Source of the DNA: Singulisphaera sp. GP187 | GTDB taxonomy: Bacteria; Chloroflexota; Chloroflexia; Chloroflexales; Roseiflexaceae | Length of the DNA: 64,000 bases | Assembly (NCBI GenBank): GCA_943328915.2 | Contig: CALQBW020000001.1 | Span: 1-64,000, forward strand | Direction of reading: 5' to 3' | Shown here: one piece after another, positions 50,832 to 62,346 of the stretch | Numbering within the stretch: the stretch's first letter is position 1 | How the letters are laid out: the number at the start of each line of letters is the position of its first letter | The notes under the pieces: generated by a model | Database searches by the model: none | What the model saw: the letters and a program-made list of their open reading frames with translations, nothing else | Told to the model about the DNA's origin: nothing | Translations under genes and position numbers: made by a program

Positions 50832-52118
50832 ATGCGCATATTTTTGATTGGAATGCTCCATGTATTACTCACATATCATCCGCAGGTCCAAAATGCATTT
50901 TCTTTGTCTGCACCCAAAACCCGTACGAATACAAAAACAGTAGCTGCATCGAAAACCCGTACGTATAACAGATCATTGACTACAACCAAAACCCGTACGT
51001 ATACCAGATCATTGACTACAACCAAAACCCGTACGAATACCAAATCATTGACTGCAACCAAAACCCGTACGAATACCAAATCATTGACTGCAACCAAAAC
51101 ACGCACCGCGACTAACACTTCGTCGCCAACTCCCATGCGCACACGGTCATTCACAAAAACAATTACTGCTGCTGCGACGTCCACATTCACCGCGACCAGT
51201 ACGCCCACCGCGACCAGTACGCCCACGGCAACCAGTACACCCACCGCGACCAGTACGCCCACCGCGACCAGTACGCCCACCGCGACCAGTACGCCCACCG
51301 CGACGATTCGGTCGGTGGTATTGGCGGCAGGTTCATTCCATTCGCTGGCCATCCGGAATGGAGTTTTACAGGGCTGGGGAAGTAATGCGTATGCACAAAT
51401 TACTTTACCTACGGCCACTACTGCGCCGATTGTGGCAATTGCCGCTGCAGACACACATTCGCTCGCACTATTAAGTGACGGCACTGTTGTGGGTTGGGGA
51501 AGAAATAACAATGACCAAATTACTATTCAAGAGGATGCGATTAATTTTATTGATATTTGTGCGGGAAAAGATCACACCTTGGGGGTTACACGAAGTGGGT
51601 CAGTGCTCGGCTGGGGGTTCAACGGCTATGACCAACTGACCATTCCCAGCGATATCGGGTTGGTGCAGGCGGTCGCCGCCGGCTTCAATCATTCGTTGGC
51701 ATTACAGCCCGATGGCATGGTGGTGGGGTGGGGCGATGATACGTTCGGGCAAAGTAGCATTCCTGCTGGGTTGAGTAACGTGATTGCGATTGCCGCCGGC
51801 GGGAATTTTTCGCTGGCACTCAAGAACGATGGCACGGTAGTGGCCTGGGGCGCCAATAATGCCGGGCAGGCCACGGTGCCAGGAACATTAACCAATGTCC
51901 GTGCCATCGCCGCAGGTGATAGCCATGGAATGGCACTCAAAAATGATGGCAGCGTGGTTGCCTGGGGGAGCAATACCTCTGGTCAGCGCACCGTCCCCGC
52001 CACTGCAGTCAATGTGGTGGCGATTGCCGCCGGAGGACGACATTCACTGGCGATGAAAAACGATGGCACCGTGTTGGCGTGGGGGCGGAGCAACGAAGGC
52101 CAGATCACCGTGCCCTGA
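50832..52118 (+). CDS. Secreted RCC1-repeat seven-bladed propeller with Thr-rich repeat stalk
   Basis: 428 residues. A signal-peptide-like hydrophobic start (1-about 23) is followed by about six 12-residue KTRT...SLT repeats (29-100), six TSTPTA repeats (about 120-158), then seven RCC1-type blades (about 160-428) of the form AIAAGxxHSLALKNDGTVVAWG. Seven blades are enough for a closed propeller. The Thr/Pro/Ser stalk is typical of extracellular, possibly glycosylated linkers. The RCC1 domain probably binds a surface or extracellular partner; ligand unknown. Convergent with moaC. Confidence 0.88.
   Translation: MRIFLIGMLHVLLTYHPQVQNAFSLSAPKTRTNTKTVAASKTRTYNRSLTTTKTRTYTRSLTTTKTRTNTKSLTATKTRTNTKSLTATKTRTATNTSSPTPMRTRSFTKTITAAATSTFTATSTPTATSTPTATSTPTATSTPTATSTPTATSTPTATIRSVVLAAGSFHSLAIRNGVLQGWGSNAYAQITLPTATTAPIVAIAAADTHSLALLSDGTVVGWGRNNNDQITIQEDAINFIDICAGKDHTLGVTRSGSVLGWGFNGYDQLTIPSDIGLVQAVAAGFNHSLALQPDGMVVGWGDDTFGQSSIPAGLSNVIAIAAGGNFSLALKNDGTVVAWGANNAGQATVPGTLTNVRAIAAGDSHGMALKNDGSVVAWGSNTSGQRTVPATAVNVVAIAAGGRHSLAMKNDGTVLAWGRSNEGQITVP
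50916..51131 (+). repeat. 36-bp coding tandem repeat
   Basis: About six in-frame copies of a 36-base unit encoding KTRTxTxSLTxT in the stalk of the RCC1 protein; neighbouring units differ by few bases. Confidence 0.85.
51190..51306 (+). repeat. 18-bp coding tandem repeat
   Basis: About 6.5 nearly identical copies of an 18-base unit encoding TSTPTA. Such an array can change copy number by slippage without breaking the frame. Confidence 0.9.
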
Positions 52119-57956: not shown

Positions 57957-58988
57957 ATGCAAGAAACACTTCGCACACTGTTAATCAAAAATATTGATCG
58001 CGGGCTGTTACTTGCAACGGCTGCAGCCATATTAGTGTTATTGAGTGGGCGTTGGTGGATTGAGTTTTTGCGGAGGCACAACATCCGCAAACGTGCGCGC
58101 AACGAAGGCAGCGATACGCGAGCGAGTTATGGACAAATCACCATGGGTGGGGTAATGATGGTGGTTCCCGTCATCATCCTCACGATTATGTTTAACCTCA
58201 TTGACCGATGGTCAATGGTATTGCCCCTTGGAGTAATGCTGAGCTATGCAATATTGGGAGGTATCGACGATTATTTTTCACTCGATACGGTGCATTCGGC
58301 AACATATGGCTTGAGCGAACGGGTCAAGGGGATTGCGCAATGGGTGATTGCATTGGTGGCGAGTTTAGTGTTGTATTTACCGGCGCCGTATGGACTGCAA
58401 CATTCAGGTTTGACCTGGATTCCGTTTATCGGGCGCATTGATTTTGGGTTGTGGTTTATCCCGGTTGCTGCGGTGATTATTTGGACTACCGTCAATGCCG
58501 TGAATATAACCGATGGCGTAGATGGTTTGTCTGGATGGACATTGTTGGTGACGTTTTTTGCATATGGGGTGATTGCCTTTATGAGCGGGCAATTCACCAA
58601 TTTGATGGCGTTATGTTTGACACTGGTGGGTGCATGTGCGGGGTATTTATGGTACAACGCTCATCCTGCAACAGTCATCATGGGAGATTTAGGTTCAATG
58701 GCGTTGGGTGGTGTACTCGCAATTATTGCTTTGCAATCGCAACAATGGTTGCTGCTCCCGGTCGTTGGGATTGTGTTTGTGGGTGAAGGAGTGTCTTCGC
58801 TGTTGCAAATTGGGTATTTTAAATACACCCGATGGCGTACGGGGACGGGGGTGCGATTGTTCAAAATGGCACCGCTTCATCATCATTTGCGTATTAATGG
58901 ATGGAGTAATCCACAAATTACGCAACGGTTTGTAGTTATCAATATGGCAAGTGCGTTGTTGGCGATTTCGTTGTCATTGTGGAATTAA
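57957..58988 (+). CDS. mraY: MraY-like phospho-MurNAc-pentapeptide translocase, divergent copy
   Basis: 343 residues, about ten membrane segments. MraY makes lipid I from UDP-MurNAc-pentapeptide and undecaprenyl phosphate. Retained: DD at 104-105, NITDGVDGL (183-191), GD at 243-244, HHH at 308-310. Changed: the first-loop motif normally K-x-GTPTMGG reads ASYGQITMGG, and the HHHFE motif reads HHHLR. It may have altered activity or a different substrate. It begins two bases after murF and is followed by the more canonical copy. Confidence 0.88.
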   Translation: MQETLRTLLIKNIDRGLLLATAAAILVLLSGRWWIEFLRRHNIRKRARNEGSDTRASYGQITMGGVMMVVPVIILTIMFNLIDRWSMVLPLGVMLSYAILGGIDDYFSLDTVHSATYGLSERVKGIAQWVIALVASLVLYLPAPYGLQHSGLTWIPFIGRIDFGLWFIPVAAVIIWTTVNAVNITDGVDGLSGWTLLVTFFAYGVIAFMSGQFTNLMALCLTLVGACAGYLWYNAHPATVIMGDLGSMALGGVLAIIALQSQQWLLLPVVGIVFVGEGVSSLLQIGYFKYTRWRTGTGVRLFKMAPLHHHLRINGWSNPQITQRFVVINMASALLAISLSLWN

Positions 58989-59078
58989 CTATGCTGGGCA
59001 ATGCGCACAGGGGACGGCGGTGCTGGACATCGCTGGTGGTCATTGACTCGGATCTACACCATCGGGAAGGGGACGAAG

Positions 59079-60176
59079 GTGCAAAATACATTACGATCAT
59101 TATTGGTGCTTGATATGTCACGTGCCTTGTTATTGGCGGCGGGTGCATTTGTGGTTACCATTATTTTTGGTCGCTATTGGCTCAGCGTACTGCAGCGATA
59201 TCGAATTGGGAAGCGAGTCCGTGTCGATGGCCCGCAAAGTCATCTGGTTAAAACCGGGACACTGACTATGGGCGGATTGATGATTATAGCGCCAGTCATC
59301 GTGCTGACGATGGGCTTTAATTTGGTCGACCGTTGGTCAATGGTTGTGCCGCTGGTTACCTTGATTTTGTTTGGGTTACTCGGTGCTGTTGATGATTACT
59401 TGTCCCTTGAACGCTCTGCCAAAGAACAATATGGATTTAGCGAACGCGTGAAATTAGTGCTTCAGATTATCCTGGCGCTCGGGATTAGTTTAGCGCTCTA
59501 CCTCCCCCAGCCATTCGGGTTGGCCAATTCAGGGTTGGTACGTATTCCTTTCCTGGGAAGCTACGACATCGGTTTTTGGTTCTTCCCCGTTGCGGCATTC
59601 ATCATTGTAGCGACGAGCAACGCGGTCAATTTAACCGATGGCCTCGATGGTTTAGCCGGGTGGAATTTGGCAATAGCATTTAGTGCGTACGGCGTGATTA
59701 CTTTTTTGAGTGGTGAGTTTACCAATTTGATGACCCTCAGTTTCACATTGGTGGGGGCTTGTGTCGCGTTTTTGTGGTACAACGCCCATCCCGCCCAGGT
59801 TTTTATGGGTGATTTAGGGTCTATGGCACTCGGTGCGGTCCTGGCTGTGATTGCCTTGCAATCGCAGCAATGGCTCCTCTTGCCATTGATTGGAGTGGTG
59901 TTTGTAGGGGAGGCATTATCATCGGTAATTCAAAAAGGATATTACAAATATAGCCGTTGGCGGACCGGGACACCCATTCGGGTCTTTCGTATGGCTCCGC
60001 TCCATCACCATTTTGAACTCGGTGGGTGGAGTGAAACGCAAATTACGCAACGGTTTGTATTGATTACCATGATCGCAACCTTGATCGGAGTCTCCTTGGC
60101 ATTGACCTTCCAACAACCACATACTGCTCAGATACCAGTTGCAAAGCCGCAAATTACGGATTCAGAAACGAAGTGA
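59079..60176 (+). CDS. mraY: Phospho-N-acetylmuramoyl-pentapeptide-transferase MraY, canonical copy
   Basis: 365 residues from GTG 59079, with AAGGGG about six bases upstream; upstream in-frame codons are not protein-like. Motifs: KTGTLTMGG in the first loop, DD at 105-106, NLTDGLDGL (184-192), D245 (MGDLG) and HHHFE at 309-313. About ten membrane segments plus a C-terminal tail missing in the first copy. This is the better candidate for the essential lipid I synthase. Confidence 0.93.
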   Translation: MQNTLRSLLVLDMSRALLLAAGAFVVTIIFGRYWLSVLQRYRIGKRVRVDGPQSHLVKTGTLTMGGLMIIAPVIVLTMGFNLVDRWSMVVPLVTLILFGLLGAVDDYLSLERSAKEQYGFSERVKLVLQIILALGISLALYLPQPFGLANSGLVRIPFLGSYDIGFWFFPVAAFIIVATSNAVNLTDGLDGLAGWNLAIAFSAYGVITFLSGEFTNLMTLSFTLVGACVAFLWYNAHPAQVFMGDLGSMALGAVLAVIALQSQQWLLLPLIGVVFVGEALSSVIQKGYYKYSRWRTGTPIRVFRMAPLHHHFELGGWSETQITQRFVLITMIATLIGVSLALTFQQPHTAQIPVAKPQITDSETK

Positions 60177-60187
60177 AGAGGGCGGCG

Positions 60188-61588
60188 ATGGAATTACGTG
60201 GTAAAAAAATCGTTGTGATGGGGTTGGGAGTGCATGGTGGTGGACTTGGTGTGGCCCGTTTTTGTGCAGAAGCTGGTGCTGAGGTCGTGGTGACTGATCT
60301 CCGCAACGCCGAGCTCCTTGCAGATTCTTTGACGGCACTGGCAGACCTGCCAATCACTTTCGTGTTGGGCGAACATCGCGCGAGCGACTTCCAACATTGT
60401 GATATTGTGGTACAAAACCCCGCCGTACCAGCTACATCGCCGTTTTTGGCAATGGCACGTGCTGCGGGTGCCCAGATCGAAATGGAAATGACCCTCTTTT
60501 TTCGTTTATGTCCGGCTCCGATTATCGGGATTACTGGTACCAAAGGCAAAACAACGACTGCTACGCTCACCGCGTGGTTGCTCAGTGCGTGGCGACCCGA
60601 GACCATCCTTGCCGGCAACATGCGCATCTCGGCATTGGCACAACTTGCCCAAATCACCCCAACTACACCTGTGGTATTGGAATTGTCTTCGTTTGTGCTG
60701 GAAGGGCTTGATACCGCATGCTTGAGCCCAGCGTATGCAGCGATTACGAACATTCACCCTGATCATCTCGATCGCTATGGCGATATGGCAAGTTATATTG
60801 CAGCAAAAGCCGCGATTGGACGCCATCAGCGACCGCAAAACACCTTGATTTTGCATTCTGACGATCCAGTTTTGCAACAGCTCTCTGCTTCAATGCCAGC
60901 GCACGTCCTTTGGAGTGGTACAAGCCAGCCGGGCTCCCCACATAATGGTGATACCTGGTGGCAGGATGATACGTTGTATTGCGAAATAACTACTGGTGCT
61001 CAACAAGTCGCGCATGCAGGTGATGTGCAATTAGCAGGGGTGCATAGTCGTGCCAATGTGGCGATGGCCGTTGCGCTGGTATTACAGTTGGGGATGCCGA
61101 CAGCGTTAATTGCACCTGCACTCCGTCAATTTAGCGGGGTCGAACATCGACAAGAACGGGTCGCGACGATCAACGGACATACTTTTGTCAATGATACTGC
61201 TGCCACAATGCCAGATGCAGCAATGGCTGCCCTTGAATGTATGCCCAAGCCAATTGTATGGATTGCGGGTGGGGCAGACAAAAAATTAGTTTTTGACGAG
61301 TTAGCCCATGTCGCTGCACAACATACCCATAAAATAGTGTTGCTTGATGGCACGGCCACCGCTGCTTTGCGTACTGCGTTAGATGGAGTCGGCATCACTC
61401 ACCGGATTGTAGGGAATTATGATTCGTTGGCTGATGCAGTACGTGCCGCACAGCAGGCCGCACCGCATCCGGCGACGATTTTGTTATCACCGGGGTGCGC
61501 AAGTTTTGGGATGTTTCGCAATGAATTTCATCGCGGCGAAGAATTTCGAGCCGTGGTGGCACGCCTCGGTATAGAGGAGTCAATATGA
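60188..61588 (+). CDS. murD: UDP-N-acetylmuramoylalanine--D-glutamate ligase MurD
   Basis: 466 residues from ATG 60188, with AAGAGGG before it; a GTG five codons earlier is an alternative. It adds D-Glu to UDP-MurNAc-L-Ala. N-terminal VVMGLGVHGGGLGVARF, ATP loop GITGTKGKTTT (114-124), NIHPDHLDRYG and the C-terminal FGMFRNEFHRGEEF are typical. Its stop overlaps the rhomboid start (ATGA). Confidence 0.96.
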   Translation: MELRGKKIVVMGLGVHGGGLGVARFCAEAGAEVVVTDLRNAELLADSLTALADLPITFVLGEHRASDFQHCDIVVQNPAVPATSPFLAMARAAGAQIEMEMTLFFRLCPAPIIGITGTKGKTTTATLTAWLLSAWRPETILAGNMRISALAQLAQITPTTPVVLELSSFVLEGLDTACLSPAYAAITNIHPDHLDRYGDMASYIAAKAAIGRHQRPQNTLILHSDDPVLQQLSASMPAHVLWSGTSQPGSPHNGDTWWQDDTLYCEITTGAQQVAHAGDVQLAGVHSRANVAMAVALVLQLGMPTALIAPALRQFSGVEHRQERVATINGHTFVNDTAATMPDAAMAALECMPKPIVWIAGGADKKLVFDELAHVAAQHTHKIVLLDGTATAALRTALDGVGITHRIVGNYDSLADAVRAAQQAAPHPATILLSPGCASFGMFRNEFHRGEEFRAVVARLGIEESI

Positions 61589-62346
61589 GTCAATCACCAA
61601 TTACGAGCGGGATACAACGGTTGTGGGGGAATAGTACGCCAGCAGTGCGCATTATTGCCCTTACCAATATCATCGTATTTGCAATTCCAGCTTTGGCTGA
61701 CTTCGTCGGATTTCGGATTTTGGGGATTTCAGTAGGTAATTTGTTGTTGATATGGGGTGCCAAGGACAATATTGCAATTGCTGCTGGGGATCAATATTAC
61801 CGGTTTATCACCATGATGTTTTTGCATGGTGGTTTATTGCATTTGTTGTTCAATACAATTGCTTTGACCTCATTTGGTAGCGAAATCGAGCGTATCGCTG
61901 GCTCACAACGCTTTCTTGGCATATATTTTGTGGGTGGGGTGTTGGGTGGTGTTGCCTCATATGTCTTTTCACCAAACCCAGCTGTTGGTGCATCAGGAGC
62001 GATTTTTGCGCTGATTGGCGCTGAAATTGTTTTTATCTGGCAAAATCGGGCCGTCTTTGGTGACCGCGCCAAACAAATGTTGGGGAGCGTGGGATTTACG
62101 GCAATCGCCAATATCGGCATTGGTTTTTCGGTCCCCAACATTGACAATATGGCGCATATTGGTGGGCTTATTGGTGGTCTGGCGTGTGGGTTTTGTTTGA
62201 TGCCATTGTTGGTGGCGGTTGCATCCGATGCGGGTCCTATTCGAATTCGCCAAGGTCGACCATGGGGCTGGTACGGCGTATTGGCCGTAGCAATTGCTAT
62301 CGTTGCGGTCGTGATGGTGGTAGTGCCCGCGGTTGATTTGGGTTAA
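61585..62346 (+). CDS. Rhomboid family intramembrane serine protease
   Basis: 253 residues, six to seven membrane segments. H81-x4-H86-x3-N90 in the second helix, catalytic S137 in GASGAIF and H191 in NMAHIGGLIGG are all present, so it should be active. It cleaves membrane proteins within the bilayer; substrate unknown. Placement between murD and ftsW, coupled by ATGA to murD, is unusual and suggests a role in envelope or division protein processing. Confidence 0.93.
   Translation: MSQSPITSGIQRLWGNSTPAVRIIALTNIIVFAIPALADFVGFRILGISVGNLLLIWGAKDNIAIAAGDQYYRFITMMFLHGGLLHLLFNTIALTSFGSEIERIAGSQRFLGIYFVGGVLGGVASYVFSPNPAVGASGAIFALIGAEIVFIWQNRAVFGDRAKQMLGSVGFTAIANIGIGFSVPNIDNMAHIGGLIGGLACGFCLMPLLVAVASDAGPIRIRQGRPWGWYGVLAVAIAIVAVVMVVVPAVDLG

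Follow-up and report, generated by a model that had tools for sequence, protein, structure and literature searches.

Why would a bacterium carry two different mraY genes side by side in its dcw cluster? The question is raised by the window, a stretch of 64,000 nucleotides (contig CALQBW020000001.1), in which an upstream copy, here C1, precedes a downstream copy, C2. Candidate answers range from an assembly artefact or a spare gene to a regulatory partner, a transferase with another donor, or a second active MraY. Judged by its sequence, C1 is a conserved natural paralogue in which the catalytic residues are kept and the uracil pocket is rebuilt, and a canonical copy lies next to it in the cluster. 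We give about even odds to the view that C1 works as an active form of MraY whose uracil pocket has been remodelled.

Two mraY genes in one dcw cluster

Both genes are intact open reading frames flanked by murF and murD (Table 1), and the original prediction of two different mraY genes was borne out, their products being 59% identical over 342 columns (BLASTP). Against TIGR00445, the NCBIfam mraY equivalog with a curated cut-off of 192.05, C1 scores 220.8 bits and C2 263.8 bits, both above the threshold; C2 is 57–66% identical to the compared single-copy MraYs from the same order. The WecA profile TIGR02380 gives C1 36.7 bits, far below its MraY score, and loop E of C1 reads HHHLR rather than a HIHH-type motif, which places it outside the WecA/TagO group. 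Four PF00953 proteins are encoded in the window's genome, namely C1, C2 and one each on contigs C25 and C3. The latter two are WecA/TagO-type transferases that share the superfamily with C1 but keep F262 (numbering explained below) and carry other motifs in loops A and E; C1 is of the MraY type.

The murF stop codon lies one base ahead of the C1 ATG, and the GTG start of murD overlaps the C2 stop. The remaining cluster genes encode MraZ, RsmH, an FtsI-type PBP, a rhomboid-type protein, FtsW and MurG. Given murF, murD and the MraZ, RsmH, FtsI-type, FtsW and MurG genes as neighbours, the locus is an ordinary dcw cluster apart from its additional mraY. The GTG listed for C2 is most likely its start, aligning with the starts of C1 and of the other members of the genus; the first ATG in the same frame is at 59001. 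A purine-rich stretch just 5' of this GTG is a possible ribosome site. The gene for the rhomboid-type protease (61585–62346) sits inside the cluster with murD on one side and ftsW on the other. Elsewhere in the window, an open reading frame at 50832–52118 contains a long Thr-Pro-rich low-complexity stretch, together with repeats that we take to resemble RCC1.

Table 1. The mraY pair, its flanking genes and the discussed sites of C1 (window positions; sites in A. aeolicus MraY numbering)
Feature	Position	Strand	Basis
murF, directly 5' of C1	56507..57955	+	TIGR01143, 368.8 bits
C1, upstream mraY paralogue, 343 aa, with putatively remodelled uracil pocket	57957..58988	+	ORF, ATG start, TIGR00445
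C1 loop A, K70–T73: S-Y-G-Q replacing K-x-G-T	58125..58136	+	alignment
C1 equivalents of D117 and D118, kept	58266..58271	+	alignment
C1 Val at L195, uracil pocket	58518..58520	+	alignment; pocket as described in PMC6606608
C1 Ile at F262, the uracil-stacking residue in A. aeolicus MraY	58677..58679	+	alignment; PMC6606608
C1 equivalent of D265 (Mg2+ site), kept	58686..58688	+	alignment
C1 HHHLR (HHHFE in C2): H324–H326 kept, E328 to Arg	58878..58892	+	alignment
C1–C2 spacer, 90 bp, C1 stop to C2 GTG	58989..59078	+	sequence
C2, downstream canonical mraY, 365 aa	59079..60176	+	ORF, GTG start, TIGR00445
murD, directly 3' of C2	60173..61588	+	TIGR01087, 391.4 bits

A genus-wide pair under strong constraint

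This is a genuine pair of long standing, and it is conserved. Searching 82 genomes of the order with C1 (E <= 1e-20) recovered both copies in 11/11 genomes of the window's genus (UBA965-like Roseiflexaceae, the window's own genome included) and the pair in none of the 71 others, of which 69 had one match and 2 had none. Across an evenly drawn sample of 400 Chloroflexota genomes (E <= 1e-30), seven gave two matches: three from the genus, and G095, G137, G211 and G424, whose second copies, each on a separate contig, do not carry the set of residues typical of C1; two of these copies, L128 and L129, are partial sequences. The pair is thus not confined to one assembly, a confinement that the original prediction had named as counting against it; it recurs throughout the genus but not in the rest of the order or, with the C1 residues, elsewhere in the phylum sample. 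One record titled Thermoflexus hugenholtzii JAD2 (CAMCVW010000013.1, L038) has the mraY pair of the genus, and its name looks wrong.

C1 and C2 share one contig in 9/11 metagenome-assembled genomes (MAGs); the contigs of G075 and G077 break within the pair, and the flanking pieces retain both sequences. The nine single-contig pairs and the two distinct sequences in G075 and G077 rule out an assembly artefact or chimera, and open frames together with low dN/dS rule out C1 as a pseudogene. UBA965 and an uncultured freshwater Roseiflexaceae clade have been reported from a lake (PMC10103773). No report of this Chloroflexota pair was found in the open-access literature searched. A genome with two mraY genes has a precedent in the planctomycete Planctopirus limnophila, for which PMC10632474 describes mraY1 and mraY2 as each singly deletable and murABCDEFGJ as not essential in the screen used there.

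In a 53-row tree, the C1 (11 rows) and C2 (10 rows) clades are each 100% supported and are sisters at 99/98, inside ordinary MraY. The sister grouping persists without the longest outgroups (98/97) and with the HDH rows described below added (SH-aLRT 97). A horizontal origin of C1 is not favoured, C1 being sister to C2 in three trees. An AU test does not reject an older split in which C1 branches outside C2 and the single copies of the same family (p = 0.163), so that duplication on the genus stem is the placement of the best tree only. The original prediction had named the grouping of the upstream copy inside ordinary MraY, combined with full activity, as counting against a distinct role; the first half of this is what the trees give.

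The C1 stem is the longer one, with 1.03 changes per column against 0.46 for C2. Recent pairs yield dN/dS of 0.025–0.051 (NG86) and 0.026–0.065 (YN00) for C1, and of 0.026–0.045 and 0.031–0.053 for C2. Deep pairs, in which dS is saturated or undefined, were set aside; the NG86 values obtained there were 0.083 and 0.126 for C1 (dS above 2) and 0.034 for C2. At the deep split between G000 and G074, identity is 66% for C1 and 79% for C2. C1 thus went through a fast early phase, still changes somewhat faster than C2, and is strongly constrained now. Gene conversion left no sign: among the nine genomes with both copies complete, within-genome C1–C2 DNA identity was about the same as cross-genome identity in 16/16 windows.

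Catalytic residues and the uracil pocket

Sites are numbered as in A. aeolicus MraY (AaMraY), the offset having been verified on the HHH motif. The residues described as catalytically important in B. subtilis MraY (BsMraY), namely D98, D99, K116, N171, D174, D231, H289 and H290 (PMC5039524), correspond in the mapping made here to AaMraY D117, D118, K133, N190, D193, D265, H324 and H325. All eight are kept in C1, along with T75, D196, N255, Q305 and H326. As had been predicted for the three Asp sites and the HHH motif, D117, D118, D265 and HHH are present in every C1 and C2 row where that part is assembled. An HNH motif, with Asn at H325, replaces HHH in 11/31 aligned single-copy MraYs, for example in L024, L025 and L090 from the same family.

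The uracil end of the site presents a different picture. The AaMraY uracil pocket is described as K70, G194, L195, D196 and F262 (PMC6606608), and C1 departs from three of these five (K70, L195, F262), C2 from none. Throughout the 11 genomes in the genus alignment, C1 has Ser or Gly at K70, Val or Ile at L195 and Ile at F262; T73 is Gln throughout C1, H67 is deleted, and Leu at 327 and Arg at 328 occur in 10/10 genomes with that part assembled. C2 has none of the changes at 70, 73, 195, 262, 327 and 328, in agreement with its description as the canonical copy, and the predicted contrast of HHHLR with HHHFE stands. The predicted loss of the Lys/GTPT part of loop A needs correction: the Lys and T73 are gone, but the last Thr, T75, is kept, and C2 itself reads GTLT. 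The changes at L195 and F262, absent from that prediction, matter as much as those it listed.

The set that separates C1 from canonical MraY (K70, T73, H67, E328, F262) is kept, residue by residue, in 28–31 of 31 aligned single-copy MraYs; the fold, the DDD and HHH motifs, the position between murF and murD and the score above the family cut-off are those of canonical MraY. Among 130 columns conserved to at least 90% in the 31 single-copy proteins, C1 is changed at 23 and C2 at 6. With loop limits defined in the present analysis, the C1 changes affect 17 of the 60 such columns that lie in loops A, C, D and E, 0/5 in loop B and 6/65 elsewhere; in a model from PMC4987650, the uracil lies close to both loop A and loop E. 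A Fisher test of catalytic (0/8) against uracil-pocket (3/5) changes, devised after the alignment was seen, gives p = 0.035. A single-chain AlphaFold model of C1 (one model; pLDDT 81.9, pTM 0.85) best matches MraY 9b70 in the PDB (TM 0.81); its loop A (49–58) has pLDDT < 50, and no claim about the pocket rests on it.

All 31 aligned single-copy MraYs have K70 and T73, so that the loss of these residues in C1 could reduce or abolish nucleotide binding. One alternative is that C1, itself scarcely or not at all catalytic, regulates C2 or forms a heterodimer with it. AaMraY is described as a dimer (PMC5039524, PMC9046198), adjacent co-directional genes would match expression, and a lost substrate pocket on a kept fold is the pattern of a pseudoenzyme. 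However, no assembled C1 row has lost any of the catalytic Asp, Lys, Asn or His residues, not even that on the long G074 branch. Pseudoenzymes usually lose some catalytic residues, whereas the eight catalytic positions of C1 are intact, and we consider a partner role rather unlikely.

Drift in a redundant dosage copy with no special role would require the pocket to be tolerant. Ile at F262 alone does occur in single-copy MraYs, in 3/31 of those aligned (L039, L040, L105) and also in L041–L044, Dehalococcoidia/Tepidiforma included, which indicates that some changes are tolerated; in L039–L044, the Dehalococcoidia/Tepidiforma MraYs, it is accompanied by Ala at N190. Yet every one of the 11 genomes, modest in size, retains C1 at a dN/dS near 0.03; the changes at K70, T73 and E328 are fixed rather than scattered, and the copies show no sign of the gene conversion that would keep them alike. 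Mere redundancy seems quite unlikely.

A more far-reaching possibility is that C1 is a neofunctionalised phosphotransferase using another donor (nucleotide, sugar or peptide) and making a second lipid I-like product. Its changes are concentrated around the nucleotide site and spare the catalytic residues, and donors modified at uracil position 5 are described as losing substrate activity with BsMraY (PMC4987650), so that an altered pocket could bring a change of donor. HHH is kept, however, and the genus has no second murF, murD or murG: the Mur-ligase and MurG matches consist of one set plus weaker generic relatives, and since they fit single sets, partner enzymes for a second pathway are not seen. 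No other step searched in this pathway looks duplicated. A further objection comes from a distant MraY clade.

A separate MraY clade with similar substitutions

Scanning with C1 peptides recovered a separate MraY clade (L051–L061), which we call the HDH type because HDH replaces HHH. Its hosts are spirochaete, oligoflexal, Caldithrix and Verrucomicrobiota MAGs and one Anaerolineae MAG (loci include L052:5839-6900, L053:5848-6894 and L058:5911-6972). K70 is absent; the clade has K73, V195 (Ile in one), L262 and R328 (Lys in L061). Four HDH-type proteins scanned with TIGR00445 scored 108–141 bits, under the 192.05 cut-off, so that automatic annotation may miss this type. Genes with named neighbours lie outside dcw clusters, near recA, queA, glyA/valS or sugar genes.

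Nine HDH genomes were searched in full, and in eight of them no MraY-type match other than the HDH protein was found; the other PF00953 relatives, where found, have WecA-type motifs, and murG is present in 9/9, exceeding the cut-off in 5. The ninth, the Anaerolineae MAG, also has a canonical MraY (L106, 274.7 bits). Its HDH-type gene (L059:4211-5275) is flanked by GH130, GH13 and sugar-transport genes and could reflect mis-binning. A pocket without K70 and F262 therefore looks compatible with the MraY reaction, and by analogy this suggests that MraY can work without these two residues, although the lack of a canonical MraY in some HDH genomes may reflect incomplete MAGs. The uracil-pocket residues are accordingly not strictly defining for MraY. 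HDH-type proteins, changed at the same positions as C1, appear to do ordinary MraY work, and neofunctionalisation of C1 seems to us unlikely. The original view of two different MraYs keeps its genus-wide occurrence, purifying selection and clustered nucleotide-site changes, while its suggestion of a different product is weakened by the HDH type and by the position of C1 inside ordinary MraY.

C1 is not itself an HDH-type protein: identity is about 30%, C1 has HHH and groups with C2, and the HDH rows form their own clade, with Lys at 73, a shorter loop A and, in the loci inspected, a position outside the dcw cluster. K73 might replace K70 there, and the analogy is imperfect in that C1 has no Lys at this site. 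Even so, C1 resembles the HDH consensus in lacking K70 and in V195, S199, an aliphatic residue at 262, R328, W183 and N334. It agrees with the HDH type and not with C2 in 10 columns (the reverse holds in 2, neither in 14). Of these 10, three (140, 144, 249) are either variable or owe the pattern to change in C2; the other seven are W183, V195, S199, G250, Y251, R328 and N334. One scan peptide, GYLWYNAH, spans 250–251, which biases the likeness there; 183, 195, 199, 328 and 334 lie outside all scan peptides. Because C1 does not group with the HDH type, the likeness, if real, is convergence, for which the alignment is suggestive but not proof.

Our preferred reading is that C1 functions as an active isoform of MraY whose uracil pocket is remodelled. 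A tandem mraY duplication within the dcw cluster, most likely on the genus stem, would have left C2 canonical, while C1 would have passed through an early burst of change at the uracil end of the nucleotide site, followed by strong constraint. C1 most likely still moves phospho-MurNAc-peptide onto polyprenyl phosphate by the conserved Asp/Mg2+/His machinery, and probably grips the uridine end of the donor differently, having no K70, no F262 and Arg at 328. We infer that C1 has catalytic activity, with a UDP-MurNAc-peptide as its donor as before, and that the remodelling of its pocket would alter affinity, regulation or inhibitor sensitivity, not the reaction.

MraY catalyses an essential step and serves as a drug target, with the uracil pocket regarded as the common anchor of its natural inhibitors. 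The uridine shared by these inhibitors occupies the pocket that appears dismantled in C1, so that C1 may escape inhibition. It is quite unlikely, but conceivable, that C1 is a built-in second MraY insensitive to uridine antibiotics. If so, lake Roseiflexaceae would keep the canonical MraY for normal work and C1 for lipid I under muraymycin-, capuramycin- or tunicamycin-type attack, and the HDH-type MraYs would have gained the same insensitivity independently. By comparing C1 with C2 one can ask which residues of the pocket are needed for catalysis and which for binding, and the apparently independent occurrence of the same substitutions in a separate MraY clade makes this question testable in two backgrounds.
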